DNA of 64,000 nucleotides from the NCBI GenBank assembly GCA_032622095.1, contig CP136062.1, positions 132,945,282 to 133,009,281 on the forward strand, written 5' to 3'. Both the position numbers and the translations under genes were made by a program. This DNA comes from Siphonodentalium dalli. Taxonomy: Eukaryota; Mollusca; Scaphopoda; Gadilida; Siphonodentaliidae. Of this stretch, positions 1 through 64,000 are shown piece after piece (position 1 is the first letter of the stretch; each line of letters begins with the position of its first letter). The notes below the pieces were generated by a model. The model was not told the DNA's origin and searched no databases. It saw only the letters and a program-made list of their open reading frames with translations.

Positions 1-1243
1 ATATTTTTATCTAAGATTTACTAGTAAGTCAAGTCTCAAGACAAGTTCAAAATTTGCATGATCATCTCGTGCAGTCGTGACCCGTGGTCACCGCACTAGT
101 ATCAAGCATTAAGTTAACAACTGATACAGACTACAGTGCTTAAGCAGGTACACATTTCAGTTCAGTTTGATTCTTCAAAGGTAAATAAGTACTAATAGTA
201 TGGTGAAATCTAGAAATGAAACTTGACATCTATGGCCCCCATCATGATCATCGGGCCCATGGAAATTGGAATGGATTAGATTTATTATATCCCGTGGTTC
301 TGTTCGGAGTGCTGAGTAGAATACAGCCAAATCAAATAATAACTAACACCTTTCGGCACGACTCGGGGGATCTTCAATAGTGGGGTCAGTCACTGAGTCA
401 GACAAATTCTCACTTGGCAACTGACATTTTTTTTCAGAACGAACAACTCGATCAAGTCCAACTCGAACTTCGAAGACGAAGGCATACTTCGAGTTTCAGT
501 AATTTACAAATTATGGGCCTCCAGCATTTCATTTACGCTCATGTCTATTTTTAATCGAGTTGTTTTAATGTTTAGTAGAACCACATACAGCTACACATGA
601 GTCATGGACATGAGGGCTTGAGTAATTCGCATTTCAGAATTTCGAGGTATTTACAAATTATCACTATGGCGATCAAGTAACTTCCCCAAGTTAACACAAA
701 TTTACTCACCTTTTTGTCCCATATCTGCAATGGTTTGCTGCCGATGCTATAAAGTATCGACAAAAATCCACTTTGAAACGTATTTTTGAACATCTTGATA
801 TCTAGAATGTGTTGTTTATGTCTAAGTCCAACGCATAAAACGTTGCTGTTCGCCGACAAAGGTCTGCTTTGCTCGATCTTCCAGTTGTCAAGTGAGAACT
901 GCTGCCTGTGTCGCCTTTCTAACCACGTTGTCAAGGACCACTCACAACCGCGTATGTATACACGTTGCTATGCTGGATGGCGTTTAAATATGTATATCAT
1001 TCAAATTAGTTTATTCATATTAGAAACCACTACATATAATAAATGTCTATTTTAATATCACAGAAATCATACGGTTTAATAAAGTTTTGGGAGTCAGTTG
1101 TAAAATCACCCGAGAACTATTTCTTTGAAGTTTTACTTCATGACTATATGAACTTCCGGGTTAGAGGAAGGCAGAATTGACCTTTAGTTACTTAGCGATA
1201 GTAGCATGCCCAAGGAGATGCCTGTCATCTCGTGAATGACTGA
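1..1243. repeat. Left copy of a long direct repeat containing the CFAP20 5' end
   Basis: Bases 1-1243 align collinearly with 62820-64000. Differences are mainly indels: 7 bp near 34, 6 bp near 100, about 80 bp (roughly 213-290, present only here) and about 17 bp near 485 (present only in the right copy), plus scattered substitutions. The repeat is cut by both window edges, so its true length is unknown. Confidence 0.93.
710..793 (-). CDS. CFAP20: Second copy of CFAP20 exon 1 (rest outside window)
   Basis: This copy encodes the same 28 residues, [10 protein letters not shown] to IWDKK, with ATG at 791-793 and the same GTGAGT donor directly after base 710. Bases 1-709 are the start of its intron 1. 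The coding part is identical at protein level to 63465-63548. Exons 2-5, if present, must lie left of base 1. It is either the 5' end of a second, tandemly duplicated CFAP20 gene or an allelic copy left in the assembly; the window cannot decide. No disabling change is visible. Confidence 0.85.
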
Positions 1244-1490
1244 CACACCTCTGTACAGGTGTGTACAATTGTAAACAATGCCACATGTGGCTCGGTTCTG
1301 AATCTTCCGATACCACACCATACAATGCTCATACACAATTAACTTTCTTGTTATACGCCAGATTTTTTTTTTAATGGGACTTATTATCATGTACGTTCAG
1401 CCAGATAAATGAACGTAGGCCTACTTTGTACGTTTGCTTTTTTTTTTGTTCCGGTGATAACTTAATTTAGACTTTAGTTTAGTATGACTG

Positions 1491-2934
1491 AGGGCCCCTC
1501 CCCCCCCCCATTTTCGTACGCCGGATTCGACCCATTTTGGACCCGTACGCCGGATTCAAGACACAAATTAAGCTGGATTCCGGATTCATGTATTTATATA
1601 AACGGATTCCATTTCGGTGAATTAAATATTGCGATTTGGTTCCTCATTTGGTCATAGGGGCCTATTCATAATACCGGTAGATCATAATATCATGAATTTT
1701 ATATGGGATCCAATCTGATGCACACTCTTTTTGGACTTAGTCCGTATATATTCGTTTGGTATTTGGGTTTTAATTTAGTATTTGGGTTTTCTAACACAGA
1801 GTGCAGGCCGAGACCACGTGTTCGGTGACCGCCGGCCAATTTCCGCTATAGGCTATAGAATAGGGTCCCCCTTTTTTGTTGGGATTTCCTTCCATGTGCG
1901 TCCCCATGTGAGGGCATTGGTAAGTCCAAACTGGTTTTACTGGGATTACTGATCCGGTGCAGGTTGGGTTCGAGTTTGGAGTCCACCCGAGGGTTTTACA
2001 TGTGTTATCACATCGGGGTATTAAAGGTACTCAATCCGATAAAACTCCTCTCAATTATTATTTCAATGGCTTCGGGCGTCAAAAATATTTGATTCGAGTC
2101 GAGGAAGTCACCCATCAAAGCTCAGATCTATTTGTTAGATATCGATTTTAGAAATCTATTATTTTTCATTATCGGGAATTCTTTCTGGCCCAGATGACAG
2201 TCAAAATTTCGTTATTATTACCACTTGATTATAGAGTTATCCATCCTTGTCTGTTTGAATAGAGTTTTGGCGTAAAATCTCGAGCAGGTTACCAAATTGA
2301 CGGCAGTTATTAGTAGGGCCTACTCATCTCGAGCAATTAACAAATTTCAAAAATCAATATCTAATAACTCTGAGCTTTGTTTGATGGGTTCCTCGACTCG
2401 AATCAAATATTTTGTTACCCCCAAAGCCAAAGAAATAGTAATATTGGACCCTCTGATCGGATTGTTGTTGTTGGAATCTGTTGAGATGGGAACCCTCTTT
2501 ACGGATTGAGTACCTTTAATTCTGGGTCAATATATCACGCCCACATAAAGAGCGTTTAATTTATTAGTTTTTACTAGGGAATGTGATAGATCCGTTAATC
2601 CAAGGAAGTCTAGACGCATATTCTATACCTTTGTTACTCTTATCCTAATAGTTTGTAAACTGCCGCAAGGTAGACTGCTCTGGACCTCATTGGTGAAGCT
2701 TCCACTACCGGGGTTCAAGACGGGGGTGCCTTTATATGTGGGACCTGCTCATATATTATGGGTATCACAAAACTAATCTATAATATCATGTAAACTGGAC
2801 GTGAAATCGGTAGGCGGCCCGTAGGCCTATTTGTTTCTTAAACTGGATTCCGGATTCCAGGGTCAATTTGAAGCTAGATTCCAGCTTCATTTTAAAACTG
2901 GATTCCGGACTCAATGGGGGAGGGGAGGGGCCCT
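1491..2934. mobile_element. hAT-like non-autonomous element with inverted G/C-rich ends
   Basis: Ends are inverted copies (AGGGCCCCTCCCCC and GGGGAGGGGCCCT), flanked by 8-bp near-duplications TATGACTG (1483-1490) and CATGACTG (2935-2942). Sub-terminal repeats of GGATTCCGGATTC occur near both ends (1515-1610 and 2845-2910). No transposase frame is visible. It contains a nested TTAA-type MITE. An 8-bp target duplication points to the hAT superfamily by rule; the ends themselves are not a family I know. Confidence 0.6.
2025..2515. mobile_element. MITE with TTAA target duplication (nested)
   Basis: 491 bp between TTAA (2021-2024) and TTAA (2516-2519). Terminal inverted repeats read AGGTACTCAATCCG and its complement. 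Closely related copies are at 50029-50508 and 50513-50981. TTAA duplications are typical of piggyBac-mobilised MITEs. No coding potential. Confidence 0.8.
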
Positions 2935-2944
2935 CATGACTGCA

Positions 2945-5740
2945 TATGTTCAAACTGAATGGAATTAAATTTGGTATGTGGCTGTATAGTCCAGTGCATT
3001 TATGGTTTATTCACCTCAAAATAATTGCAACACAAAGTTTCTCAGTGGTAATAAGTACTTTAACCCATCACAAATAATATACTAAAAATCAACAAGAATC
3101 AAGAAATGCGAAATTGATGAATTTTGTGAAATAAATTTGTCAAAATTTGGTAAAATACTCATTTTATAGATTTTTAAGGATGTTTATAAAAAAACTTCCT
3201 TTCACATGTCCTTCCATTTATATAACCATTTTGTAGAGGGCACAATTCTGATTATAGAACAGAAAACCTTTCCTAGATACGTTCAGTATTTTTTGAGTTA
3301 TGTGCCTCCAAAATTTGGAGTTTGTCTAATTTCGGAGGCTCAATTTCTCAAAATTAGTTAAAATCCATTTTTTATGGTATTGTATTTAAAAAAAAAAAAA
3401 AAATGAAGGGATTCCTTGTTAATTAGTCATTTCCTCTCTAGGTTGTGCACAAAATATGATTTCTTTATGCATCTAGCTATGATTGAGAGGACAAAAATAT
3501 TCTTAAACAAAATGTGTGTTCCATCATTGTATGGACAGCCAAATTTGCCTGTGGTCCAGAACCGGTGTTCTGCTTAATAAGTACGTCCTGCCAGATAAGT
3601 CAATATTTCTAATAATAGTAACGTGGATGTATAGCCCCGCCCTCGGAGAAATATCGCTGCAATTACGACATGGTCGTTTGGCGTTGCCTAGTCAATAAAT
3701 TTGTAGTGTATGACGTACTACGCACACCATATCGAAAAAATGCTTCCGTGATCTGATTTTTGAAACGTTTTTACGCGAATAAAGGTTTAAAATCAACTCC
3801 CCGGGCAAATTTCTTCGTATTGGGGACAGGGAATGTGTTTATACATATGGCATCGCTGTTGATAAGAATAAATTCACATTTATGCAATGACTAGACCTAC
3901 CCTAACTTATGATGTCGATTAATAAATATGGCCCATCGATTGCTAATTATGGCAAAATAATTAAATGCTTCTGAGAATTTAGCATTGAATGAGAAAACAA
4001 AGGTTATTACCCCCCCACCCCCCACCACCACCACCATTGTTGATAACTACTGTATTTTTGGCTATATTACATTCTTTGAATGGTCGTATAGGCTATAGGC
4101 TATATTAGCCTATATATAATTATCACGATAACCCCTTCGGTGGCTACATGCATCACAATGAATGTGCATTGATACACAGGAAGAATCACAACCAGTTTTG
4201 AATACGTTACTAAAATGCTTTAACAAATTCGTAACAATGGATTGGTCAAGTACGCTTACAAGTATTAAAGATCCTCCAGAGTTTGATACCGCGCGCTCTG
4301 TAGTCTATTATACTATACAATCCACGGAAACATGCGAATTTCACTGAATCAACCACAACATAATCACAAACTTTGAGTTGGTGGTTATATACTGATGCTG
4401 CTCGTAGTTATATATGAGAGCACACATATCAATATATATAGTGTAGGGCCTACTATATTTGCATTCTTGGCAGCTATAGTGTAAACCATCGATCGAATCT
4501 CCAATAAAGAGCAACCGAGGCGACATCGTGCGAAAAAAAAGTCACTCAACCATGTTCGGTAGCATGCCTACACCTATATATGTATGGATCCCATGCAAAA
4601 TATCCCCTATTCATTTCGTTAACTCCGTGTTTGTGTGACTGTCTGCTGTGGCAGGTGGTTAAGCGTGCCTGTATATAGGCCTTCGCATCCACAAATCCCA
4701 GCCTATATTAGGAATTGATAAGTTGTATATACATCGTTGGTGGATAAACTATATACGTATATGTCTGAGGGATGAACCATTTATATCAGAATCGCGATAA
4801 AGGTTATACGGTGAGCAAACTTATATTTAAAACATATTTAGGCCCTATACATGAACGTGTCTAGAATGTTTCCGTTTTGGTGCAAAAAACTTGGAATTTC
4901 TAAATGCACCACCTTTGATCGAACCAAAATAATTCTCAAAATTGAAGAAAAGCTATATAATTGCACAATGCTATGGCCACATATTGGAAATTTATAATCG
5001 CTAACTGCACACAAACCTATTAGTGTATTGGACTTCAAAGTTCAAACTGTTGATTTTTTTCACCAAAGTGGGAAGGGGAGACACCACGACCCCGTCCCGT
5101 GTCAACGCGTCCGTGCATATACATAACTGATATCGTCAATGCTACTGCATTTTCTCCCCCGCCGCATGCAGCACAAGTTACATGCATGGGGAGGGGGGGG
5201 GGGGGGTCTGTGCTAAATTAATTACTGCATGTTCAACTCAATTGCAGAACATTCTGCAAATAAAATATTGTTTGTATGAATTTATGCGTGGGAAAACGAA
5301 ATACCATTTACGAAAGTAAGTTCTATATGCATTTCTACCCCGCCCCATTTCCACAGAAGAATGCCCATTGCATCAATTTCGAGTAGTGGTTTGGACGACC
5401 CAAGTTCGTCAGTTCTATGTTCTTGTTGTTTTACCAAGAACTCAACGAACCAACAATCGAGTATTCAATAAAAGAGAATTAAACAGCAGGAGGTAGTACC
5501 ATGCCTCTTGGAAACTAGTGACACAAGATTATTTACTGCAGATGTCACTTCCTAAAGAAATGAACTGGAAAATATTTCATTTGACTATACTAAGTTATTA
5601 TAAGTGAGCAATTACTGGTAGCGTGATAAAAAAAATCCCAGACAAAAGAATTTTGCTAATATAAAATATTATCACCTGAGCGCATATTTAGGCCTATGTC
5701 AGAGATAAGCACCTTGAAATTGGAGTTTTCTTTAGTAAAA
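2945..5740. other. No gene recognised
   Basis: AT-rich sequence with low-complexity tracts (A13 near 3390, C/CCA-rich 4010-4035, G-rich near 5190). Open frames are short and without family resemblance. No repeat boundaries could be set. Confidence 0.5.
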
Positions 5741-5744
5741 TTAT

Positions 5745-6540
5745 CTAACTCAAGTTAGAACTCTGACATATATTAATAAAAACTTTTTGTCTGTCTAGAC
5801 GACCAAATGGCTGGACCATTGGTGCTAAAAAATGTACACATGGGTCAATTGACCCGGGGAGTGTCATGGGATTGCTGCCATTGACATCAGATGTCTTAAA
5901 AGGACAATAATAATTAATTATACACCCAAAATGGTCGGAATTTTGTAATAAAGATTGCTTCGCATGGGTCAATTGACACGAGATAGGTGTTGTTAACATC
6001 TGATTCAGACGACTTAAAGGGGCATAAACAATTCTAATTTAAAAAATGAATCATATACACAAAATGGTTAGACTCTGGTTGCTGGAAATTGGTATACAGG
6101 GGTAAATTCACCCGGGCAAACTTAAAGGGGAACTTATAGACTATATTATAGAGATGAGCAATTCTTATCAGCTTAAACAATATGTAGTAAAATTGGTACA
6201 CATGGGATCCCATGACTAGGGGAATGTCATGGGATTGGCGCCTTGGACATCAGATGACATAAAGGGATGTTTGTAAATTATGTTAACATAGCTTATCAAT
6301 TAAAAACATTTATCATCTCAGAAGATATATGGGAAAATTGGTACAGAGATAAATTGGGCGTGTCATGGGATAGGTGCCGTTGACCTCAGATGACTCAAAG
6401 AAGTACTAATAATTAGCAATAAAGAGCGTTTATTATCAACTTAAAAGTAGAGGTAAATTTATCCAGAGTTTCATGCAATATATATGTGATGCTTATCTCA
6501 GGTGACTAATAAATAGTTTAAATGACTGGAGGGGGCACTA
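5745..6540. repeat. Diverged tandem-core block
   Basis: About five degenerate units of roughly 130-180 bp. The recognisable core is CATGGGTCAATTGACCCG, then GTGTCATGGGATTG, then GACATCAGATGAC and an AT-rich spacer. The units differ strongly from each other, so the block is old. It resembles the cores of bivalve pearl-type non-autonomous elements in organisation; ends not determined. Confidence 0.6.
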
Positions 6541-6544
6541 ATAA

Positions 6545-7227
6545 TGTGTTCATTATTTACCTGAGCAATGCCAGGTACCCTATCTAGTAATTGATACAGA
6601 TATGATGGACTTATTTTTTGTATGGTGGAATGATTAGGTCCCGCGCTGACAGCACCCCTCCTCTCGTGCAAGTTTCCTCACCAAGCAGGTACTCACTGTC
6701 TGATGGCTCTATTTTCATATTATTGTGAAGTGCATCATTGATCTACCATTTAGTAAAGGTATCCCACAAATTTGTCATAAATGTACTTCAAAGCTTCAAA
6801 TATATTACTGTATGCAGACATCTATCCAATTATTGGAGATCCTAACACAGGCTTGTCTTTCAACACACAATTGATACAAACGCTTGCCATTCAAGGCACA
6901 TATCTAAATTATTGTTCCTTCAATACATTGAAACTCCACAAGTACAACAGGGCATCAGATGAATATTTAAACTAAACTGTTTTAAAAATGGAAAGATTCT
7001 TTGCAAACTTCAAGCTTCTGTTGGCCCATCAGAGGAGATACTGTAGGGAATCTTTTTGACCAAACCACTTTGATTTGAAATGGAAGTGTGCGACTAAAAT
7101 ATTGTAATCTGTGGGTAACATCAGGTGTGGTTTCTTCACTGCTTCAAGATTGCTGACTAATATTGATTTGAATTTATAGATATTGGGATGAAATATCTCC
7201 AAATATTGACAGTAGAATTCTTGTCTA
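6545..7227. other. No gene recognised
   Basis: AT-rich unique-looking sequence. The 64-codon frame at 6781-6975 has no recognisable motif. Confidence 0.45.
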
Positions 7228-7741
7228 TCTCATATATATTTTGAAGACCTCTGTTTGTTTGTTTGTTTGTTTGTTTGTCTGTCTGTCTGTCATTGATACA
7301 AATCTACGATTCTCGACCGATCGGGACGAAACTTGGTACGTGTGTGTAGTTTGACCGGGCGGTGAACGTTGTCGTATTGGCGAGCCCGTGCGGCGCCCGT
7401 GCAGCGCATGCGCAGACGAGATCTCGGAAACGGGTGGAGCTATCGACTTCAAATTTGCTATGTGAATGTATCTTGCCCCGGATGCGAATTTTATCGGGTC
7501 GCCGAGCCCGTGCGACACCAGCTTCGCGCATGCGCAGACGAGATCTCGGAAACGGGTGGAGCTATCGACTTGAAATTTGGTATGTGAATGTATCTTGCCC
7601 CGGATACGAATTTTATCGGGTCGCCGAGCCCGTGCGACGCCAGCTTCGCGCATGCGCAGACCAGATCTCGGAAACGGGTAGAGCTATCGACTTGAAATTT
7701 GGTTTTTGAATAGCCCGGACAACGTCGGGCTCATCGGCTAG
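7228..7741 (+). mobile_element. Non-autonomous Helitron, copy A
   Basis: 514 bp. It begins TCTCATATATATTTTGAAG after an A and ends with hairpin GCCCGGACAACGTCGGGC followed by TCATCGGCTAG, then T: the TC...hairpin...CTAG ends and A/T insertion site of Helitrons. Inside are a GTTT/GTCT microsatellite and about 2.5 units of a 127-bp GC-rich core (CGAGCCCGTGCGACGCC ... GGATACGAATTTTATCGGG). No Rep/helicase coding sequence. Confidence 0.82.
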
Positions 7742-7922
7742 TCTCCTATATATTTTGATACAATCTGTATTCGAGAGATAACCCACATCCTCCGGACCTC
7801 AATGATATGATCGTGAATGAGTATTGATATACCCCACTAAACTTTGACAATCACCAGTAATGGTGTGTAGATAATTTACATATCTCTCCTATTATTTTGA
7901 TACAATCTATCTAATTTACATA

Positions 7923-8437
7923 TCTCTCTTATATAACTTGATACAATCTATCTGTTTGTCTGTCATTTATACAAATCTACGATTCTCCACCGATCGAGAC
8001 CAAACTTCCTATCTAGGGGTAAAATCCCACGGACACGGTCGTTGTCGTATTGGCGACCCCGTGCGACGCCCGTGCAGCGCATGCGCAGACGAGATCTCGG
8101 AAACGGGTGGAGCTATCGACTTGAAATTTGCTATGTGAATGTATCTTGTCCCGGATACGAATTTTATCGGGTCGCCGAGCCCGTGCGACGCCAGCTTCGC
8201 GCATGCGCAGACCAGATATCGGAAACGGGTGGAGCTATCGACTTGAAATTTGGTATGGGAATGTATCTTGCCCCGGATACGAATTTTATCGGGTCGCCGA
8301 GCCCGTGCGACGCCAGCTTCGCGCATGCGCAGACCAGATCTCGGAAACGGGTGGAGCTATCGACTTGAAATTTGGTTTTTGAATAGCTATCGACTTGAAA
8401 TTTGATTTTTGAATAGCCCGTCGGGCTCATCGGCTAG
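7923..8437 (+). mobile_element. Non-autonomous Helitron, copy B
   Basis: Same family as 7228-7741, ending at CTAG (8434-8437). The 3' hairpin is shortened (GCCCGTCGGGC) after a small tandem duplication of the preceding 30 bp (8345-8412). The 5' end is uncertain: TCTCTCTTATATAAC at 7923 is the best match, but TATCTCTCCTATTATTTTG near 7880 and TCTCCTATATATTTTG at 7742 look like further 5' ends, suggesting partial insertions between copies A and B. Confidence 0.7.
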
Positions 8438-8935
8438 TCTCATATATATTTTGAAGACCTCTGTTTGTCTGTCTGTATGTATGTCATTTATACAAATCTA
8501 CGATTCTCGACCGATCGGGACGAAACTTGGTACGTGTGTGTAGTTTGACCAGGCGGTCGTCGTTGTCGTATTGGTGAGCCCGTGCGACGCACGTGCAGCG
8601 CATGCGCAGACGAGATCTCGGAAACGGGTGGAGCTATCGACTTGAAATTTGCTATTTGAATGTATCTTGCCCCGGATACGAATTTTATCGGGTCGCCGAG
8701 CCCGTGCGACGCCAGCTACGCGCATGCGCAGACGAGATCTCGGAAACGGGTGGAGCTATCGACTTGAAATTTGGTATGTGAATGTATCTTGCCCCGGATA
8801 CGAATTTTATCGGGTCACCGAGCCCGTGCGACGCCAGCTTCGCGCATGCGCAGACCAGATCTCGGAAACGGGTAGAGCTATCGACTTGAAATTTGGTTTT
8901 TGAATAGCCCGAACAACGTCGGGCTCATCGGCTAG
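8438..8935 (+). mobile_element. Non-autonomous Helitron, copy C, abutting copy B
   Basis: 498 bp from TCTCATATATATTTTG to CTAG (8932-8935), with 3' hairpin GCCCGAACAACGTCGGGC. It starts immediately after the CTAG of copy B, with no spacer. The internal core is the same 127-bp unit, about 2.5 copies. Confidence 0.8.
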
Positions 8936-10680
8936 TAGGCTCTATAAAAACTGGTAATTTAGTAACACAGCTGGGGGATAATACAAATGGAAACACTTTA
9001 GAAATGACCTATTGAAAGATGCAATTGCCCACATGCCTGTAAATATATTCATTATTGACTGAATGTAATGCAGAACCGCATGCACTGTATCTGTAATTGA
9101 TAAACATCTTGCAATGGTTATTTCATTTATAACACTGGTTATACATTTTGGTATATCTTAAAAGGATAAGATATAAAAATGTCGTTTCATCTCATCGATA
9201 GAGGCAATATTATTTTCATCTCATGCATCCATGAAATGTTGGAAGGTCTTCTCCCCAACTGTTTTCAGAGGCCATATATCCAGGACAATGGAGAGAGAGA
9301 AAGAGAAATACTGTCAAAAATTTTATTCAAATTCGGGAAAAGTCCATAACAACAATATCTAATATGTGCTCTATAGTAGTACATACATGTATATATTAAA
9401 GTATGGAGCTTCAAAGATAAAATGAGAGTTGCACAAAATATTGTATTTAAGAAATGAATAACACACACACAAACCCACTGCATTCATTTCTTTATTTATA
9501 TAGCTTTTTTATTGTTTATTCCCATAAACGAGACCAAAATCACCAACCAAATAAAGTTAAAATTTGTGGCCAATTTGGTCCAACAGTTTAACCTGAAGTA
9601 GGAACATATGCCATTATGGACTGTTGGTTTAAAAACATACATGAGGGAAAAATAAACCAAACTATGAGAACAATTCTAACCTATTTTTTATGTGAACATC
9701 TAATCTACAACTAATGTTATACCAGGCATGAAATTTTCAACTGTTTAAATTTTGATCAAATAGGGGGTCAAAACTCCACACTCCTTCCCTGTTGCCTCCA
9801 ACATTTCCCCCACCCAGGCTTCCTAGAAATCAATATTATTATACCAGTACCAAACAGGATAGAGAGCTAATCTCTTATCTCTGCCCCTATTAGAACATAT
9901 GTGAATCCCCATCTATGAGATCGATTCATCTAGTAATATCAATATACCCCCACTATCCAATAGGGTATGATTTCACCTGGATAAGTGGTGGTTAACAAAA
10001 TAATATTGGGACAGCCAAGTCTGTATTTAGAGTGTCTGACCTCTGAAGAATGAGGTCCACAAAAGGTGAATTTAATGAGTCATGACACTATTCCCCCAAG
10101 GTGGAATAGCACAACGTATTCACCCTCTGGGGATATCATTTCCTAACGAGAGGCCAATCACGACCGACAGATGTTTAACCCATACCTTGGCGATAGCGAT
10201 TAGCTATAACTGATAATTGGTCTAAGATATGATCACAGTAATACATATATCAGTACTTAAACTTAAAATCAAAAGCTCAAATAATTTGTCTTAAGAAGGG
10301 GTTAAAGTATTTGGGGTGGGGGAGGAGTCTATTTAAATCTCATAACTCTGTCCCTATTCACACAATGACCTCTCACTGTGAGATCCAATGGTTTAGCCAT
10401 TAATAAATTTGACAGATAGGATAAACAATTATCCAGCCAGCAGATTGTTTGTCTTTACCTTCATACAACCACCCCTAGAGCTTTGTAACATATGTCACCA
10501 CTTAATTAATAACAGATTTCGCTTGGAATGACATCTATTAAAGGTACTCTCATATACTCTGGATATTGGATGTTCACATGGCAATTTATTGCTATCATTA
10601 TATTACATGCAACTATTGCAATAAAATCTTCATATCTTCAATAAAGGACATCACACCTAATTAATGGTATACAACTAAAA
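8936..10680. other. No gene; scattered repeat fragments
   Basis: AT-rich. Segments at 9830-9960 and 10000-10140 match 48780-48910 and 49330-49470 (a fold-back type with ATTCACCCTCTGGG), so part of this is dispersed repeat. No coding signature. Confidence 0.5.
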
Positions 10681-10682
10681 CA

Positions 10683-11190
10683 AATTAGTGTCAATGAAAT
10701 ATTTTTTTTTTAATTAAATATTTTTTTATTATTTAATATAAAAGTTTTTTAATATTTTTTGCGTGTTAAATTGAGCGAGGAAATTCAATCTATAAAAGGG
10801 TCATAACTCCTTTAAAATAAATCGAATCAAACCCAAATTCGAACTTGATCTGTATTTTGGGCTGACAATCTCACATACCAAATTTGGTGTCAATTAGTTA
10901 TGGCAGCATGTGTAAATTCTGAGTAAAAAAGGGCCATAACCAGCCCAAACTGCAAAAAAAAAAAACTCGAATCAAACCCATATTCGAACTCGAACTGTAT
11001 TTTGGGCTGAGAAACCTATATACAAAACTTGGTTCCGATCAAATAGAAAATGTTAGAGCTATCGCATTATGCCTAAAGTGTCTACGGACGGACAGACAGA
11101 TGGATGTACAGATGGATAGATGAACGACGAGTGGTCAATCCGGACATTGACACTATGTGTACCATACTATGGTATAGGTACACATAAAAA
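10683..11190 (+). repeat. Tandem-core element with GTGGTCAATCCGGAC tail
   Basis: An AT-rich head ends in AAATTGAGCGAGG (10770-10783), then about three units of a ~125-bp core (CCATATTCGAACTCGA, TATTTTGGGCTGAGAAAC, GGGCCATAAC), then GGACGGACAGACAG and tail ACGAGTGGTCAATCCGGAC with the small palindrome ACCATACTATGGT. The same core and tail occur at 11755-12300 and, reversed, at 44255-44690. Organisation is like bivalve pearl-type elements. Confidence 0.7.
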
Positions 11191-11754
11191 GTTTTATCTC
11201 ATGCAGAGTACAAGAAAAATGTATCAAAGTTCAAACCTGTTGTGCCTTTTTAATATTTCTATTCACATTTGTAATCAATTGAAATCAATGTCGAAAAAAC
11301 TTTCCATTAATATCTAAATAAAACAAACTAGACCTACAGTTCTAAAAGTGTTTTTAATAATTATTTTGTTCTCATAGACTGACACAGAGCTCTCAAGTTT
11401 TAAAAAATTTGAAAACCAAAGTTGTCTTCCCATGCAACCAACAAATCTACTAAACACAATCACATTATTAACCCCCAATAGTAATGCTATTAAACAATAA
11501 AACCAGATTATGCCTTTAAGATGAAATTTAAATAACCATGCATATAAAATATAAAAGCATAAACATTCCATCAATGATATCTCATCATATGGCCAACACA
11601 TCTGCTAGCAGTTAATTAACTCAATGCAAGAGAGAGTCATTGTCACTTTATACTATCTCTGTTGCTCAATGTGAGAAGACAACTTCATGGCATTGTAAAC
11701 CTGATTTATTAGATTCTACCTGGACAGTGCAAACTGTGTATCTTTGATATATTT

Positions 11755-12300
11755 TAGAGATGAATAAAATAATCAAAGGGTCATAACGCCCGCCATTAAA
11801 TAATATCGGATCAAACCCATATTCGAACTCGATCTGTATTTTGAGTTGAGAAACTCACATACAAAATTTGGTTTCTATCAGTTGGAATATGGTTGATTTA
11901 TCGAAGCATGCATGAATTCTATGTCAAAGGGCCATAACTCCATTAAAAAATATCGGATCAAACCCATATTCGAACTAGATATGTATTTTGGGCTAAGAAA
12001 CTCGCATACCAGATTTGGTGACGGTCAGATAATTTTGTTTTGAGTTATGGCAGCATGCATGAATTCTAAGTCGAAAAATGGCCATAACTCCATAAAAAAA
12101 AATCTGATCAAACCCATATTCGAACTTGATCTGTATTTGGTGCTGAGAAATTCATATACAAAATTTGGTTCTGATCAGATAGAATATATTTCAGTTATCG
12201 CACCATGCGTAAAGTGTCTACAGACAGACGGACTAACGACGAGTGGTCAATCCGGACAACGACACTATGTTTACCATACTATGGTATGGGTAAACATAAT
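11755..12300 (+). repeat. Tandem-core element, same core and tail as 10683-11190
   Basis: Four units of the ATTCGAACTCGATCTG core, then CAGACAGACGGAC, tail GTGGTCAATCCGGACAAC and palindrome ACCATACTATGGT. Units keep their order but differ by many substitutions. Confidence 0.7.
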
Positions 12301-12303
12301 ATA

Positions 12304-12968: not shown

Positions 12969-13059
12969 AAAATGACCCTATTTGAACAAATCTGAACCCG
13001 GTCACCCAAGGCCCATCCATACTGAATATAATTTACTTTCATTAAAGATTAAAGTTTCA

Positions 13060-17072: not shown

Positions 17073-17079
17073 AATTGCA

Positions 17080-48700: not shown

Positions 48701-48724
48701 AAAATTACATTTCATTGAACAAAT

Positions 48725-50508: not shown

Positions 50509-50512
50509 TTAA

Positions 50513-50981: not shown

Positions 50982-50999
50982 TTAAGTGGATATTAAAAG

Positions 51000-51640: not shown

Positions 51641-51758
51641 GAGTCCAATTAACTCCAACACAATAACTGTTGCAAAAAGAATATGTCAGTGCTCTAATTC
51701 TCGATCTGTGAAGTCACCATTGTTCACTCAATGTGTGAAATGAGCATAGATATATAAT

Positions 51759-52092
51759 CAGACTCCCGTTACAATCCGGTTCAAAGCATACGCCGAACAA
51801 AAGAACGGTAATTAAACGGTCCGCTTATACTAGAGTACGTAATCACTATACCATTACACACTTTCGTCTCGTCCGATCTCATCTCATCCGGTATTCAGAG
51901 GTAATAATCAAGTGTTCGCTTAATTATGGACTAACAAAACTGTCCGGTATTCGGAATATAGAGGTTCCGGATTTTAATTTTTAGAGGTAATTTTTAGTGA
52001 GAATGCACTTGGGTTAATTCGGGACCAGACAATTCATTCGGATTGAGGAGGGATTCGGATTGTAGAGGGTCCAGTATGTAGAGGTTTCACTG
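51759..52092. mobile_element. Possible pogo/Tigger-like MITE
   Basis: Begins CAGACTCCCGTTACAATCCG and ends TAGAGGTTTCACTG followed by TA. CAG-type ends, repeated TCCGG/CGGATT and TAGAGG motifs resemble short derivatives of pogo/Tigger elements. The inverted ends match only partly. Confidence 0.4.
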
Positions 52093-52299
52093 TAATAATA
52101 AATATAGCAAACAATTAATCTAAAGTCTCATTTTTTAATGAGATTTTGATTTTTGCACATTTGGGAGATCCTGGGTGTCTTTTTGTACATTTGAGAGATC
52201 CTGTGTGACTTTTTGCACGATATCATGCGGCAATGACTAATTCAGCCGAAATTACGGGCCTTATTTATCTTGACTATTATTGTCACTGTGATGGTTTTG

Positions 52300-52526
52300 C
52301 GTTATAACGAAATCGTTGTCTGCCAGATTTTGGTGTGCTTTGGTATGGGAAAGACCAGCATGGGTGAATGGATATTCACGCCATCATGCGTCGATGCATT
52401 GTTTTTTTTCCAACTATATCTGTCATGGTCCTTGGTCAACTGTCCATATGAACGTCTTGCATTATATTTTATACATGAGCATTGCTTGTCAGATTACATG
52501 TCATTCTTTGATATTCTGATAAACTA
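52300..52526. repeat. Second copy of the dispersed repeat at 45117
   Basis: Shares CAGATTTTGGTGTGCTTTGG, GACCAGCATGGGT and TGAGCATTGCTTGTCAGATT with 45130-45300. It contains an extra ~30 bp (TATATCTGTCATGGTCCTTG) and runs into the hairpin at 52527. Confidence 0.7.
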
Positions 52527-52739
52527 CAGTAATGCCCTAAGTAATCGACCCCTTAACCACAGCAGAATTATGGGTAACTTTTCAGGATTTAGTTGGAAAT
52601 ATGGCTTGTTGCCATTCATTGGAAAGCTCTCTTGGGGAGCTTTCCGATGAATGGCAACAAGCCATATTTCTGACTAAATCCTGAAAAGTTACCCATAATT
52701 ATGTTGTGGTTAAGGAGCCGATTATTTAGAGCATTACTG
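52527..52739. mobile_element. Tc1/mariner-type hairpin MITE
   Basis: CAGTAATGCCCTAAGTAATC ... GATTATTTAGAGCATTACTG between TA dinucleotides (52525-52526, 52740-52741). The arms pair almost completely (GGTAACTTTTCAGGATTTAG with CTAAATCCTGAAAAGTTACC; GCCATTCATTGGAAAGCTC with GAGCTTTCCGATGAATGGC) around a loop of only a few bases. Confidence 0.87.
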
Positions 52740-52741
52740 TA

Positions 52742-53770
52742 GCACATACAGAACAAAGATATCCATATATATATATATAGAGATTATTTTGTCCAAGCAT
52801 ATTATTACACTGATAACAGTTATGACACATGGTAGGCAATAACAGGCATGTAATTAAGCATTGTAATTAATGTACTCTCATCGGTGTAACACTGTCATAA
52901 CATGCCGTGAGAGGCATTTTCATGTCAGGTTTTGCACCAAGTCTTGTTAAAGTTATATGAAACACTCTGCTACATGTTTCAATTCTCGAATGGAATAATC
53001 ATCCTAAAAGCAGCTCAATGTAGTATTCCTAATATCCCATAACTGCTCCGTGGGGATCAAACAAATATTTTCCGACCTCAATTTACTCACCCCCCCCAAA
53101 TATGGTTCAAGATACATAATCTGATTCTATGGTCCCGGCCTCATCCAATTACAACAACGCCATTTCACCAAAAGCAAATTTAGTTATCCAAATTAGTTTA
53201 TTACCAATAAATATTCACAACAACACCAATCACGATATCATATTTTCGTAAAATTCCTACAATATAACTGTTTTTCTTGGCAGTTTGGAGGTGAGCGAGT
53301 ATGGTTTACAACTTCCAAATTAATTTGGGTCACACATGATCTCTCATAATGGCATCTGCCCATGTCCACTATTTCTGCGGAATTTTTGCAAGACCACCAA
53401 CTATTCCAGGTGGTGAAAAATAACAGATTTCAAAATTCGAAATCTCATAACTCAAAAGCTTTGATGGGTGGGTTCCTTAACTCAATACAAAATGTTTCCC
53501 CCCCCTAAATAAATAGTAATTTAGGGGCATTAAATCTTTAAGACTTGGAAATTTCATGCCGTTATCATCAGTTGGATATTTCACATCAGTAATTGGTTGA
53601 AACTCTGCTTATAGTTTTGATTTTCCAACCAGTATTTAATGTGAATTTTGTTTTTAGATCAAAAGTAGCATATTGCCCTGCTTTCGGTAAAATATTTACT
53701 ATATATTATAGCAAACCAAAATTCCCGGAGCCCTGTTAAACTACTAGTAGGCAATCAGTTGGGAAATTTC
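52742..53770. other. No gene recognised
   Basis: AT-rich; two C-rich tracts (53090-53097, 53499-53506) with nearby CTCAATTTA-type flanks suggest an old diverged repeat. No coding signal. Confidence 0.4.
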
Positions 53771-53779
53771 CAATCTTAA

Positions 53780-54805
53780 TGGTAGTCCACGTTTCATTTG
53801 GCATAAACCAGCTTGTGATATCTGTAAGAATATATACTGTTTTAGTATGATAGTATCTATCCAGGGCTACAGATATCACTAGATCATGTCATGAATCTCT
53901 ACTCAGGCTAATGCCTGTAGAGATCATATTCCACCAGCACAAAACCTGGGAACTTTTTGAGGTTTTGACAGGGAACCTTATAAAATAACACGGGGAATAT
54001 ATTTCTTTGTTATTATCTATTTCTTAATAATGTACTTCACTGTAGGTGAAGGTCCCAACTCGAAATTTCATAATTTAAGTGACTTTGTGAGCAATTTTGC
54101 ATTGCGATTCATACAATTATGGAATTTTTCCTGGGTAATTAATTGAATGTTTATTTCGAAATCGGCTCTCAAAATTCACAGAAAAGCATGCAATTTTAAG
54201 TTGGGACCTTCGCATATAGTAAAGTACACTTTTAAGGAACAGATAATCATTAAAGACATATTATGTACTTGTTCGGGTGCGTTAAACTATTAAGTTAGTA
54301 TTCAGGCACTATGTCAACAGGAGGAATGTAGCATTCTACTATATCATCGAAAATTCAAGCAAATCGACCGTACCACTCCATACAAAACATCATGTGAACT
54401 ACGCTCAATTGTAAATATTTACTTCTCGATTCGGGACGCAACTATCGGCGATAAGTAACGAAAACAATTTCGCTATCGTGAGTCACTAAATTTAATTAAT
54501 ACAAAATAATGATGGCGTACATTGCCAGTTTGGATTTAATATTTGTAAAAATAACTACTTTGAGCAATATTATCCATTTCTTTTTTATCACCCTACCGGA
54601 GTGCTTCACATCACTTTAAGAAATATATTCCCGGTCTTATTTTTTCGACTTTAGAAGGTTCCCTGTCAAAACTTCAAAAAGTTCTCAGGTTTTGTACAGG
54701 TGGAATATGATCTCTACGGGTGTTAGCCATAGTAGAGATTCATGGCATGATCTACATATATCACAAGCTGGTTAACTACAAAGGAAACTACGACTTTCAT
54801 TAGTT
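53780..54805. mobile_element. Large inverted-repeat element
   Basis: Left arm about 53780-54010 pairs with right arm about 54625-54805 (GAGATCATATTCCACC with GGTGGAATATGATCTC; AACTTTTTGAGGTTTTGACA with TGTCAAAACTTCAAAAAGTT). The left arm carries an extra ~70 bp. The interior includes 54235-54565, homologous to 35690-36060 in reverse. Confidence 0.7.
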
Positions 54806-54809
54806 AGGA

Positions 54810-57300
54810 GCTTGATCTGGTCCGGGTGCAGATGAAAATCCAAGTTGACACCCCCATCCAATGGCGACCCTCTAGTGCCTCTACCCATTCCCTGACTACT
54901 AATTAGTGAATATCCAGTTATCAAGATGTTAAATGTAGACTAGTGTAATTTAATTTAACTTTGTTGCACAAATCAGTTGAGATTAAGCATAAATTTTGCA
55001 GGTCATACTGATTCAAGCTATTGAATCAGCTAAAAATCTGAGTGGTATGATCATCACTTATATGGACGGCTTTTTCACAATTATTCATATTAAAGTTAAC
55101 TTGAGTGCAATTGTATTGATCAATTAATTCAATTGTGCATAAGTGGAATTACTCACAACTGACCCTAATTGTATTTACACTATTTCAGGCTTATTTTGTA
55201 TTGGTATTACACAACAAATCTTTGCAAATATCCAATAGAAATGTGAACTGATGTAAAAAGGACTTGAAATCATGTTCAGCCAAATGTGTTAAGTCTCATC
55301 TGTTTGGGCATTGGCACTGGAAGAATTAAACACAATTTTTTTAAGCCATAACAATCTTCCACTCCCAGATATACATTTGGACCATACTAGTAATCAGGAT
55401 CAGCTATCTGTTTTGCTACAATTACTGGGTTTTTTTTTTTCAGTGGAAAAATTATATATTAACTGGTCCCAATAAATTAATTTTGTTCAACTACATGTAT
55501 GTCAGAGCAGAATAATTTTTGACTGAATTTCAAGACTCAGTTGACCACCAATTCTGGTATGAAATAGGGTTTATCCTACAATTGCTAACTTCAGCATAGT
55601 GTGGAGTACTTCAATTTTAATCAGATCCCCAACATAAAATGAAAGAAATGGTGAACGTCATTTCAGGAAAGACTAAAATTATTCACACAAACAAGGACGG
55701 TTGTCCATATATACACATTAAGTTAACTTAACACGCAAAAACTACCAGTCCAATAAAGGTGTTGTTGGCTTCTTGGTGATGACATTAGGATAAGAAATTC
55801 AGACAATACCATACTATAATATGCCATATTGTACCAATATCCAAAGGTGATTCAGTTTGTCATGAGCTCTGTCATTGCATCAGTATAACCCTTTCTTAAC
55901 TAAATACAAATACTCATTGATGAGTAGTTCAAATTGTTCAGATAATTAATAAATTCAACAACATTTGTTGAACTTATTATCTGAACATTTACCACCAATG
56001 GATAAGAATACTTTTGCATTTGTATTATCTGTTCAGCTGCCTGTTGTTTAATTTTATTTCCTGAACATACCTCCAGATGAATAATAGACCATTCTAATGT
56101 ATACATCTGCCTGTCTGTTTGCTTTTAGATGATAACTTTAGCTAGTCTCAAGTCAACTGAATGGAATGAAATTAAGTATTTACTAGCACAAAATACAGGT
56201 CAAGTTGAACTGATCAAATTCTGGTTCCGCCCGTCAATTTTCACCTGAGTTATGGCACTTTGTTGGAATTACCACAAGCGTATTTTGTTCATGCCCCAGC
56301 GATGCTCTTGTTAAGCCTAAACTTTTTTCCTCCAGGCTTCAAGAAAATCTGTTATCCATCAATGTTTATTTTGTACCCATGTATAGTAATTACAAATACT
56401 CGTTTTATATATAAAATGCAGTAAAAAACATAGAACTCATGGGAATATAATAAAAATTTATGTTTTGTGACAAGTGGATTTACACAGATGAATGTAGATA
56501 CACATTGCAATTTAATAACCTTAACTTCCAACTAAGAACAAAACAAGTTTCAAGAGGAAATTCTTAACAAAATAACAGATACTTAAATACAAAATTGTGG
56601 AAGGACAGCAATAATTGACCTGAAAACAGAATTAACCCTCACCATCCCTTCTTCAAAATCTAATCTATAAATTCCCTGAATCAAACAGTAATTTTGTTCA
56701 TGTACATTTGTATACTATGGCATTCCTGCTGCCAATCACTAGTCAATTTTGAAAACTTTAGTTGATGAAACTTCAGTTACTTAGATATTTCTGCATGGAC
56801 AATGATGTTTCTATAGTGAAAATGATGCACTGCCCGAGTTTTAGACAATGAATATTTTGTATAATGTAAAAATCTCTTATAACACAGACACACAAATCAT
56901 TCATTCATTCAATGGTGACAGACAGTTCAGATGAAATGGTCACTTTCATTGAGTGATAAAAAATTATCTAGAAGTTAAGAGTCATATATGTTTCTTTTGA
57001 GAACAGAAAAAAAAAATTAGCATGGACTAAACCTTTCTTTAATGAATACTCATTGACAAGTACTTCCCTCAGGAAATGTTCAGTTAATAAGTCCGACGAA
57101 CGACTATTGGCCATAATGTTTTTTTTTAGGTATTTGGAATGTTACTTTTAACAGCATACTAGTGTTCAACAACAGAACAAAATTATTTCAGCGTGATAAA
57201 TACTACCACAGCTTGCCCTCTAATTTTATATCAGCCTAAGTAGAGTCTTAGCTGGAATAAAATAAGACACTAGAAAAAAGTTTTCAAAAGTAATATCTCC
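54810..57300. other. No gene; AT-rich DNA downstream of CFAP20
   Basis: A short hairpin at about 55925-55990 (TTGTTCAGATAATTAATAAAT with its partner ATTATCTGAACA). Otherwise no repeat family or exon was recognised. Confidence 0.45.
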
Positions 57301-57645
57301 TTAAAATTCTAGAACTTCATAAAAATCAAATAGATAGAGATATCCTCAGAATGTCCTGTTTTAAGCACTAGATATAACTCCTTCATTCCAACGCTTGGCA
57401 TATACATGTATAACATCCAGATTTTTGATGATAAAACTTTATTCTTTGACACATGAATTCCAATTTCAACTGATAACCTGATTAGAGAACATGGAATGTC
57501 AAGGCTGAGACAGGAAAGCAGGCACTCTTGTCTTGTATTCAGATGTAGGTTTCCAACTTGAATCTTCAATTTTCCCAGTTTTGATTCAGAAAATGTCATA
57601 TATACAGATGAGTTTAATTGTCTTAATTCATAATCACATTTCGTC

Positions 57646-60600
57646 CTACTTTTTCGTGACAGGTAAATACAGTTTGAATTCTGCTGGTAGTTCGTCTTCT
57701 GAATAAAGTCTGTCTGAAAAGTACACTCTCCTGATTCGACAGTTAGCATGGATCTGAAAGCAAAATAAAGAGAAGAATGCAATAATTCCATTTCAAATGA
57801 TGGAAATTTGGCCAATAAAGAAGCAATATAGACAATGTTCGCATTCCCCCTACCTATACACATCATACTAATTAGTAAAAACAGTACCCTTATTTATTTT
57901 CCACACTAATTTAGTACTAGTTTCCTTCAATGTACCTACCCATGAAGTTTAAAATTAATTTCTAATTGAAATGGAGGACACATTAATATAATGTATACAG
58001 TATAGAACAAAAACCACGAGGCCCAAAGTACATGTGGGAACTAATTCGGTGACAATATATTTTGATGGATGCCAGACATAAATATCATGTAAGGCTTCTA
58101 GGGACAGTTCAATTGCTAAATTAAATTGATGGCAAAGTCAACGAAATCTCACCTGTACTCTGAGTGTTTCGATGTAGTTCGTGCCATATGCCCTACGTGT
58201 GAAATCTGACAAGTTGAACTGAATTTGATTCCATCCGTCATCCAGTCTCATTGGCATAGTACAAATAAACGGCTTCACCCTTGTCGTACTCTGGTAGTTA
58301 CTTGCTCGGAATCTCCTTCTGACATTTTTGTCATCTAAGACCTGTGGAAAAAGTTACAAATTAATACAAAATGATTTCAAGATCAATTCAATCACATAAC
58401 ATTATTCATCAAGGACAAGCTGTTGAACTCAAATAATCCAATTATCTGACATTCCATAAATCAGGTCAATATCCAAACATGTGGCACTAAATCAGCTGAA
58501 CATATGCATGTAAATATTTGTTTCAAGAACACATTGAGCCCACAAAACACATAAAATAATTTTCAAAGATTTAAAATTAGAGGGGAGCCAAATAGGCAAA
58601 TACTAGTCTATGGAATGAGTAAATAACAAAAAAAATGAGGAGAGGGAACCATTCATTATCTGTTCAATAAGAAGAGGGGCCCAATGCCTTCACAGCGGGT
58701 AAATATACCAACAATTATAAAAGTCTCCAAAAAGCTCACCATCAAGAAGAATGTGGAGAAATAGATCAAATTTGTTCCTATAATCTTTATAGATAGTTCA
58801 CCAAAAGAAATTTTACATGTTGAATCCATTGAACATAATGTAAACAGAACTGTTACAGCTATTTGTAAAAAAAACACCACTATCCGCATAGTAAGTTATA
58901 ATATTTTAATATGATTTTCCGAAAAGTTTTTAATGCTTTGATGCTTCCAATGGTTACAATCCAGTTTTGATTTATAATAAACTTTAAATAGTATTTAATG
59001 AACTAATTGGACTTTGACCGGTAATATCATTGTAATAGTAACACTTACATAACAATGAGTGAATGACTTCGATATGCAAAATATTGTTATTGGAGTGTCA
59101 TAATAATAACAAGAGGTGGCATCAGAGATGCTGTGTCTCGTTTTCGGTGGCTTACCGCCGGTGGCTACCGCAAATTGGTGTGCATCAGTATGGGTAGACT
59201 AATTAATAGGTAAAATCGGTTAATATTTGTTCAAGTTATCGCGCCAACGGCCTCAAAATCGCGAAGAATTCACATACTAAGGGGCATAACTCAGGGGAAA
59301 AATTTCGGAGAAACCCGGTTTTCGCACTCTTTCGAGATATTGTGCGAAGCAAGCCACACACCAAAAATTAATATAATCGGTTAATATTGTTCAAGTTATC
59401 GCGCTAACGGCCTCAAAATCAAGAAAATTTTGCAAACTGAGGGGGATAACTCAGAGAAAAAAGATCGGACAAACCCGCTTTTCGAACTCGTTTGAGATAT
59501 TGTGCCAAGAAAGTCATGTACTGGTACCAAAATTTTTTAATCAAATCGGATGACGTTTGTTGAAGTTATCGCGCTAACGAGCTGAAAATTCGTGAAAAAT
59601 GACTAATTAAGGGCCATAACTCTATCAAATTTTATCGGACCAGACCGGTTTTCGAACTCGTCCGAGATATTCTTGGGAGACACCTATATCGCAAATTTCA
59701 ATCGAATCAGATAACGTTTGTTGAAGTTGTTGCGCTAACAAGACTAAAATCAGTGAAAAATGGCAAAGGGCCATAACTCTGTAAGAAATGTGCGGACAAA
59801 CCCGATTTTTTGTCAGCAGCTTACGTGCATGGATATGTACTCACACAGACACACACCAAAAAAAAAATTAATCCGCCAATAAACGGTTGAGTTATAAGCA
59901 AAACACGCCGCCCGCCCACCATCAAACTATAAACTTGTCGAGTTTTGGAAAAAAACTCGACTAAAAATAGGAACAAACCCTGGTATCTATTTTACAAGAA
60001 CATGTTGATGATTGTTGTTTTACAGTATACCGGTACACGGAGTCTTCTATAAAATTTATGTTATTGTGCATAAATCAATTTGAAGGCCTCAAGCCACTTT
60101 AACATACCTGAACTTCAAATGTGAAATATTTCTTCAAATTCTTTATGATCATCACCAAGAACGGCAGCTTGATGCCTAACGTCTTCTTTGGATCAGCTGG
60201 ACATGTGATGAATGTGGTACTGGAATTAAAATAAGAAGGAATATTGAACACAATGAACAGATCATGTACAATTGTCATCTGAGTTTCACAATTTTATATG
60301 GATAGAAGTACCCAGGTACGGTGGGCTGACTTAGTAGTAAGTTCAATAACTGGGGAGGACTATGGTAAGTATGGTCCATCCAGATTCATGACACGATCTA
60401 AGGCTGTTCCAATTGATCTCCTGTCCAAAAAAAAACATGGCATGGTTGGCAATAATGAAAACTAAGATGAAAAAAACATAAGAAACTAACAACTGATACT
60501 ATTAGCGGAAAATATCGGAAGTGTTGCCAAATCATGAATCATCGTCTTACTCAAACAGACTTATCCTGAGAAAAAAAATGCAAAGTATACAATGAGAATG

Positions 60601-63548
60601 TGGGATAATATAATTAACATACGGCTAATACACACCTAACATTTGTTCCAACAATTTCTAATACAAGTGACTGGATATCGTTGTCTGTTATTCTCTTTAT
60701 GTGACCATTCCGCACCTACAAAAGGAAAAGTAAGACATAGTAATTTTATTCATCACAAACAACTAAGTGACTCCAATTAACTCAAATTTACTAAAATGTC
60801 AGTAGTAGATAAGACAAAAAGCCTTTTCAAAGCCAGTTTCTGCAATTTATAAGATGCATTGCCGAAAAATCATGGGTCTATATTGAAAAAATGCACAAAT
60901 GAGAGCAGAATTACAGACTACATGTATCCTGATTTGTACCAATTCTTGACAAAATTATAGTGTCAGAAATCACAAGTCACGTTGGAACTTTGATAAATTT
61001 TACTTTTTCTTTACATAAAAGGATGAATTGCACCGTGATTTACTAGAATGTGTCAAACTGTCATGATGCAAGCTCACTTGAAGTTGAAAAGCCTTCATGA
61101 CACCAAAGAACCGGGATTACTAGTAGTAGTATTTAGTCAACAACAGTGCTCACATTAAGTGATGTTTCGTTGATCATTGATTGATCAATCACTTCAATGT
61201 CAGGGTTTCCGTTAGTACGGCACAGCGTCCGTAGGACGGCCTCATTCCCCTCGCAGATGATCTGTTTGATTCATACATGTACCAAAAGTCAGCAGCAATA
61301 CAGCAATATGTCATAACAAATTTGGACTGCAACGCGAGTTCGGGGGTTAAACAGAATACTGGTGAAAAAGCGGTCCATTGAGCACAGTGTGTTACGGTAC
61401 ATCATAAACCTTTGAAATCAAAGCGCCAAAACTGCAACGTAATGTTTGATGTACATTGGAATAGCGACGTTACCGTATATACAGCGTAATAATGTCGCGA
61501 TAACATCAAAGAATGCAGGACGACTGAGTACGGATATTTTTGTTCACGTGATTTGCGAGGTTGAAACTACTCACGCTCGGAGATCCCGTGCTATCGTACA
61601 ATTACATAATTTGATCAAAGAATGCCGAATTGCTGAGTTAGGCAGAGTGGGATCAACATACACCAAAAGGCGGTTCTCCTTAAATTCTCCTTGCCAGGTA
61701 TTATTGGTCATTATACATGTACCGTACCATCATAAATTTGTAAATACTGTGACTTGTAGCTTGTTCATTTATATAGTCTCAATCAGACGTAATTGCATGC
61801 GTAATTACATGATTAATTATCTGGATCAACAGAATTAATGCACCCACGGAAATTATCGACTTGCGTAATATACGTATAGCTTTGGATTGCTTTGTGGGAC
61901 ACTCAGGTGCAAGGAAATTGCTACTGTTTATTGTCAAATAACAAAATTTTCGCGTTATGTGTTTTCCCAATACGGACTCATTAATTTTCCCTTGGCGGAA
62001 ACACTGACTTCATGGTAAATCATGAAATAATATTTTAAAACGCCAAGAATTAAAAAATAAAACAAAATTCAAATGTCACCGAGTCGGTGAACAACAATGC
62101 AGAGTACCGTAACTCAGTTTTCAGCAATATGCTAGACACTCAAAGCCATATGACAATCTGCGAACAAGATATTACTGAGTATGATAGACAGAGTGGCAGC
62201 CCTCATAATTGGCTACGGCAATCAGCAATGCCGAAGCCATTTGCCGAAGTAAATGGACCCCACATCAATGGTTGCCGTAGTGGATTGCCGAAGCTGAAAA
62301 ACCTGAATTATGAGGGCTGCTCAGTGGCCATATAAATGTATTATTTTATTACAATATTTATTATCGGATATCCACCCCATCCCATTATAAAAATAACCAC
62401 AGTGACATTGTTTCACAAACTCAAATTATTTCTACCTACTACTACTAGTACGTACCTGATTATTGATCAATTATGAGATCATTTTAATGCAGCTAATGTA
62501 ATACTAATAGGCCTAATAAGTTTTTTCTTCAATAAATTTGTTCTATTTGACATTTGTTGTTGTTATATTGTCTAATATTTAATATTGTTGTGTTTTTAAT
62601 TTTTAACTCACTTTATTATGTTAATTGTGATTTAATTCAGCAATTTCAGGTTTAGGTCAATCTAAAATACTAATGTTTAAACAAAAAAAGATCAAGAACA
62701 AATGTCCGAAAAAGGCATAATATTATATTATAAATTATAATAAACTTAAGCAAAAATGATCACATAATAAAACAAGAGTCGACTCAAGACTTTAAAAAAA
62801 GACAAGTTCTGAAAATCAAATATTTTTATCTAAGATTTACTAGTAAGTCAAGACAAGTTCAAAATTTGCATGATCATCTCGTGCAGTCGTGACCCGTGGT
62901 CACCGCACTAGTAATAGTATCAAGCATTAAGTTAACAACTGATACAGACTACAGTGCTTAAGCAGGTACACATTTCAGTTCAGTTTGATTCTTCAATAGT
63001 AAATAAGTAATAGTATGGTGAAATATTATATCCCGTGGTTCTGTTCGGAGTGCTGAGTAGAATACAGCCAAATCAAATAATAACTAACACCTTTCGGCAC
63101 GACTCGGGGGATCTTCAATAGTGGGGTCAGTCACTGAGTCAGACAAATTCTCACTTGGCAACTGACATTTTTTTTCAGAACGAACAACTCGATCAAGTCC
63201 AACTCGAACTTCGAAGACGAAGGCATACTAATACTATGATACTTCGAGTTTCAGTAATTTACAAATTATGGGCCTCCAGCATTTCATTTACGCTCATGTC
63301 TATTTTTAATCGAGTTGTTTTAATGTTTAGTAGAACCACATACTGCTACACATGAGTCATGGACATGAGGGCTTGAGTAATTCGCATTTCAGAATTTCGA
63401 GGTATTTACAAATTATCACTATGGCGATCAAGTAACTTCCCCAAGTTAACACAAATTTACTCACCTTTTTGTCCCATATCTGCAATGGTTTGCTGCCGAT
63501 GCTATAAAGTATCGACAAAAATCCACTTTGAAACGTATTTTTGAACAT
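57646..63548 (-). CDS. CFAP20: CFAP20, cilia- and flagella-associated protein 20 (five exons)
   Basis: Exons in transcript order are 63465-63548, 60636-60715, 60108-60219, 58153-58341 and 57646-57753 (stop TAG at 57646-57648), 573 nt in all, giving 190 residues; the human protein has 193. All four introns are GT-AG: donors GTGAGT, GTGTGT, GTATGT and GTGAGA, acceptors after TTTTGTAG, AATTCCAG, TTCCACAG and TTTCAG. Phases agree, with intron 2 splitting a Ser codon. I recognise the family from [14 protein letters not shown] and [11 protein letters not shown] (exon 1), [10 protein letters not shown] (exon 2), [13 protein letters not shown] (exon 3), [19 protein letters not shown] and [11 protein letters not shown] (exon 4) and [20 protein letters not shown] (exon 5). 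The family is a microtubule inner protein at the inner junction of ciliary doublets and also acts at basal bodies. The tail is PVTKK, slightly shorter than in vertebrates. The start is the only in-frame ATG, with A at -3. A candidate AATAAA lies at 57438-57443, about 200 nt past the stop. The identity is essentially certain. Confidence 0.97.
59110..59970 (+). repeat. Tandem-core element in CFAP20 intron 3
   Basis: About five units of ~155 bp (GTTCAAGTTATCGCGCTAAC, GGGCATAACTCAGG, CCGGTTTTCGAACTCG, GAGATATTGTGC), ending CTTGTCGAGTTTTGG and AAAAACTCGACTAAAAA, which form a terminal hairpin. Same family as 33640-34340, antisense to the CFAP20 transcript. Confidence 0.72.
61201..62006. mobile_element. 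Probable hAT-like element in CFAP20 intron 1
   Basis: Ends CAGGGTTTCCG and CGGAAACACTG, with flanks ACTTCAATGT (left) and ACTTCATGGT (right) that look like an imperfect target duplication. Contains a small inverted GTCCGTAGGAC near the left end. The 130-codon frame inside has no recognised domain. Confidence 0.5.
62197..62319. mobile_element. Short hAT-like MITE in CFAP20 intron 1
   Basis: 123 bp with ends CAGCCCTCATAATT and AATTATGAGGGCTG, flanked by CAGAGTGG and CTCAGTGG (6 of 8 identical). Interior repeats of TGCCGAAG and GGCAATC-type words. Confidence 0.65.
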
Positions 63549-64000
63549 CTTGATAACTAGAATGTGTTGTTTATGTCTAAGTCCAACGCATAAAACGTTG
63601 CTGTTCGCCGACAAAGGTCTGCTTTGCTCGATCTTCCAGTTGTCAAGTGAGAACTGCTGCCTGTGTCGCCTTTCTAACCACGTTGTCAAGGACCACTCAC
63701 AACCGCGTATGTATACACGTTGCTATGCTGGATGGCGTTTAAATATGTATATCATTCAAATTAGTTTATTCATATTAGAAACCACTACATATAATAAATG
63801 TCTATTTTAATATCACAGAAATCATACGGTTTAATAAAGTTTTGGGAGTCAGTTGTAAAATCACCCGAGAACTATTTCTTTGAAGTTTTACTTCATGACT
63901 ATATGAACTTCCGGGTTAGAGGAAGGCAGAATTGACCTTTAGTTACTTAGCGATAGTAGCATGCCCAAGGAGATGCCTGTCATCTCGTGAATGACTGACA
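62820..64000. repeat. Right copy of the long direct repeat containing the CFAP20 5' end
   Basis: This is the partner of 1-1243. It holds the end of CFAP20 intron 1 as read on the plus strand, exon 1, and about 450 bp upstream that should include the CFAP20 promoter. No clear TATA box was identified. The homology is still running at base 64000. Confidence 0.93.

Follow-up and report, generated by a model that had tools for sequence, protein, structure and literature searches.

The window, that is, the whole 64,000-base stretch of DNA analysed here, carries the ciliary gene CFAP20 complete at its right-hand side and as a lone first coding exon near its left-hand end. CFAP20 is a very conserved animal cilia gene, usually present in a single copy, and its product is an axonemal protein of the ciliary doublet microtubules. 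A right-hand CFAP20 at 57.6-64 kb had been hinted at by the first-pass annotation of this DNA, and all five coding exons could be located there (Table 1). The coding sequence amounts to 573 bases including the stop codon and has an intact reading frame without an internal stop; the introns are flanked by GT donors at exons 1-4 and AG acceptors at exons 2-5. The encoded protein matches 7rro_XA across all 190 residues (phmmer, E = 1.3e-125), and the Pfam CFA20_dom was found in the right copy with an E-value of 7.1e-39, from the portion scanned, which extended up to 59200. To judge by the right copy, exons 2-5 belonging to the left one would be expected beyond the window, about 2.1 to 5.2 kb to the left of base 1. 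No tandem duplication of CFAP20 in animals is reported in the titles and abstract openings of the papers listed on CFAP20 duplication and paralogs.

A run of 100 N breaks the assembly between the two copies, and the earlier claim of a scaffold gap at this place is thereby borne out. Since this is the single N-run between them, the two copies lie on different contigs; the sequence separating them is referred to below as contig A (1246-29108) and contig B (29209-62819). Pfam was searched with six-frame translations, stops being written as X, over 59,097 of the 64,000 bases (1-14702, 14707-29108, 29209-44210 and 44200-59201, with one or two bases at the stretch ends absent in some frames), at E up to 0.1, or up to 0.01 in one of the runs. 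Only CFA20 and an ankyrin/SOCS-box gene exceeded the curated cut-offs in these 59,097 bases. The latter is an ASB-like open frame, whose PDB matches are to ankyrin and designed-ankyrin chains (best 60 of 381); no chain named ASB is present among those 60. An Ank_5 match was below its cut-off, and matches to DUF5671 and PUFD, well below theirs, were discarded. The open frame at 43820-44167 has no PDB match, the sole PDB match of that at 61443-61838 (E = 0.78) was taken as chance, and no Rfam family reached its gathering score anywhere in the window. No Pfam-recognised gene touches the gap within the 59,097 bases scanned, and a PDB search at E up to 1 gave no match for the frame running into it (28887-29108). 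In the absence of a recognised gene at the gap, gene continuity gives no test of whether 29108 and 29209 are truly adjacent.

Repeats were also observed in the window. One, of ~475-500 bases, occurs at 2018-2519 in contig A and as a tandem pair (50022-50512 and 50509-50985) in contig B, the copies being 90-94% alike; because it is about 66% like its own reverse complement, it may be a foldback-type mobile element. The region 7268-8936 contains arrays of a 122-base unit together with larger-scale copies, and the palindromes at 52524-52742 (219 bases, 89.5%) and 40739-40887 (about 150 bases, 86.7%) are possibly MITE-like.

Table 1. Features of the window and their coordinates
Feature	Position	Strand	Details or basis
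Left copy of the duplicated segment	1-1245	-	452 bases preceding the start codon, then coding exon 1 and first 709 bases of intron 1; cut by window start
74-base block in intron 1, left copy only	209-282		Global alignment
CFAP20 coding exon 1, left copy	710-793	-	Donor GTGAGT; Pfam PF05018 profile positions 1-30
N-run, exactly 100 N, sole one in the window	29109-29208		Window scan
ASB-like open frame, 340 codons	37486-38508	-	Ankyrin repeats and SOCS box; Pfam
Complete CFAP20 coding sequence, right copy	57646-63548	-	5 coding exons, 190 aa
CFAP20 exons, right copy	63465-63548, 60636-60715, 60108-60219, 58153-58341, 57646-57753	-	
Right copy of the 1-1245 segment	62820-64000	-	Self-BLAST and alignments; cut by window end

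The two ends of the window are collinear and in the same orientation, as seen by self-BLAST, global alignment and MAFFT alike. Self-BLAST pairs 63024-64000 with 283-1245 (98.4%, 2 mismatches, 14 gap bases) and 62820-63024 with 1-209 (91.6%, 2 mismatches, 16 gap bases); a third copy of the segment is absent from the 80 best self-BLAST matches listed for the window. In the global alignment the copies differ by four substitutions (0.34%) and five indels over 1,161 ungapped columns. The substitutions fall, in left-copy coordinates, at 179 and 180 (which are adjacent), 589 and 801, and on the same coordinates the left copy has 7 extra bases at 29, 3 at 190 and 74 at 209, and the right copy 6 at 97 and 14 at 484. 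A single substitution lies outside intron 1, 8 bases upstream of the CFAP20 start codon; the remaining three substitutions and every indel are in intron 1. The 84 bases of coding exon 1 and the donor that follows do not differ at all between the copies. The best match to the 74-base block elsewhere in the window is 12 bases long (short-query BLAST of 206-285, E up to 1). It was also observed that the indels are spread over 29-484 (left-copy coordinates) and that the two insertions of the right copy resemble nearby TAGTAT/ATACTA strings, as with local slippage or templated insertion. Most of what the first-pass annotation had said about the segment holds on this evidence: there are two collinear copies in the same orientation, the exon 1 protein is identical, and indels make up the larger part of the differences. 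Two details required adjustment. The left copy, described as 1-1243, is matched to the last base of the window as far as 1245, and the large indel is genuine but comprises 74 bases, not ~80.

The similarity of the two copies is far beyond chance, and a divergence of 0.34% in substitutions, with five indels, in what is mostly intron and upstream DNA indicates that they separated recently. A retrocopy is ruled out, since intron 1 and upstream sequence are present in both copies, and the substitutions and indels that distinguish the copies exclude wrap-around of a short or circular record. Homopolymer sequencing error is an unlikely source of the differences; indels of 3-74 bases and mixed sequence would seem to resemble real haplotype variants more. 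The low divergence is equally compatible with alleles and with a young duplication. One explanation to consider is that the animal itself recently underwent a genuine tandem duplication, of a unit of about 62.8 kb, which supplied a further CFAP20 and perhaps a further ASB-like gene. The collinearity, the common orientation, the identical exon 1 and donor and the complete right copy are all compatible with such an event. However, the left gene is seen as exon 1 only, so that a second complete gene is not in evidence, and the copies are on separate contigs with a gap between them, which Ko et al. report not to have found for true duplications (PMC9516828). We regard a tandem duplication as unlikely, and its more specific form, namely a very recent ~63 kb tandem duplication that left both CFAP20 genes intact, their first exons identical and their first introns diverged by indels, as slightly less likely again.

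The same survey gives near-identical copies split by an assembly gap as a mark of false duplication (PMC9516828). The present assembly has both elements, two near-identical copies and, on the same scaffold, an assembly gap between them. The gap between copies is the one examined here of four published marks, and it is present; the others, also given by Ko et al., depend on reads, and are half depth, discordant linked reads and one-copy k-mers (PMC9516828). The share of false duplications located on the same scaffold is put there at 7-24% in older assemblies and at 61-92% in newer VGP assemblies (PMC9516828), which would weigh against an artefact if the present assembly were of the older kind. 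The first-pass annotation had been undecided between an artefact and a true tandem duplication. We favour the artefact, because the copies are near-identical, because they are on different contigs with a gap between them, and because the gene concerned is conserved and usually single-copy. A heterotype (haplotypic) false duplication, in which one haplotype was left uncollapsed, is thus in our judgement very probably the explanation. The differences had furthermore been taken to look allelic, as in a highly heterozygous animal; they are indeed rich in indels, but 0.34% substitution is modest and is by itself no sign of high heterozygosity.

How this could have come about may be outlined as follows. 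The contig of one haplotype would end at 29108, and the contig of the other haplotype's overlapping region would start at 29209; both would have been kept as primary and placed one behind the other in a single scaffold, with 100 N as a placeholder between them. The real haploid order would be 29209-62819, then the CFAP20 5' region, then 1246-29108, with a single CFAP20. The copies would be alleles that extend past both edges of the window, and the scaffold join would be wrong. Should these 100 N stand for a gap of unspecified length, the ~62.8 kb spacing of the copies is nominal only.

The extent of the duplication bears upon this scheme. The copies are at both edges of the window, no sequence comparable at ~62.8 kb spacing falls outside the duplication, and no outer boundary is encountered within the window on either side, so that the duplication is at least 1.2 kb long and may be far longer. 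Duplication of all the comparable sequence with no outer boundary would be as expected for a long contig overlap; against it, only 1.2 kb is visible of the about 62.7 kb of overlap that the false-duplication model needs. With 1.2 kb per copy and the left exon 1 alone in view, it might be argued that a real but shorter duplication, dispersed or transposed, took in the CFAP20 5' region, ends just past the window edges and made a left copy that is perhaps truncated and non-functional. We consider this distinctly improbable: the similarity has no end inside the window, no boundary, terminal repeat or target-site sign was seen, and the gap between the copies counts against a shorter duplication just as it does against a tandem one. 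A haplotypic false duplication makes a further prediction, in that homology would be expected outside the window and not at the facing contig ends. Sensitive BLAST of contig A against contig B gave scattered repeat matches, and the 60 longest matches listed include none between the facing ends, a result that tells neither for nor against the false-duplication model. The join across the 100-N gap is without visible support, which, together with the sharing of scattered repeats and of none at the facing ends, would also be compatible with some other scaffold misjoin, such as one between contigs of two individuals or of a mixed sample. Nothing points specifically to a mixed sample, however, and 0.34% substitution would be within the expectation for a single species; we give this very little credence. 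It should be noted that the probabilities expressed for these four explanations (false duplication, tandem duplication, shorter duplication and other misjoin) are judgements and were not computed.

The prominence of indels was considered as a possible discriminator. Indels account for 5 of the 9 changes between the CFAP20 copies and for 28 of 195 pooled over eight repeat pairs (28 indels and 167 substitutions; Fisher p = 0.006), a comparison in which the eight pairs were picked by the authors from the window self-BLAST, overlap one another and are non-independent, and in which the indel fractions serving as null values are assumptions. One of the eight pairs, 31271-31598 with 31638-31991, likewise shows five indels to four substitutions. 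The indel share is high, but it fits neither an artefact nor a real duplication specially, and the mix of changes cannot separate alleles from recent paralogues. Given the non-independent comparison pairs and the assumed null values, indel-rich divergence was dropped as evidence for one model.

The duplication is present in the assembly, but the sequence seen does not show a second CFAP20 in the animal. A false duplication would matter only by way of caution: annotation of the scaffold would list CFAP20 once too often, or in truncated form, within a ~63 kb region that is inflated and in the wrong order. A real one would mean that a strongly conserved axonemal gene, as a rule single-copy, was duplicated not long ago, and two intact CFAP20 genes, were they true, would be a naturally occurring change in the dosage of this very conserved doublet-microtubule protein of the cilium.

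Comparison can be made with known systems at the level of both the protein and the assembly. The 190 residues of the right-copy protein correspond to residues 1-190 of the 193-residue solved chain of CFAP20, PDB 7rro chain XA, from which they differ at four positions (counted by eye), two of them within the last three residues; the protein is otherwise ordinary. At the level of the assembly, the heterotype false duplications described by Ko et al. (2022; PMC9516828) are likewise near-identical, on the same scaffold and separated by a gap, with part or the whole of a gene affected. Guan et al. (2020), in the purge_dups paper, describe how highly heterozygous species, amongst which they name most insects and marine animals, can retain overlaps in the set of primary contigs, for the most part between homologous chromosomes (PMC7203741). 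The present locus resembles such retained heterozygous overlaps in having two contigs, apparently overlapping in homologous sequence, that are both placed in the scaffold, although the overlap in view extends over just 1.2 kb.
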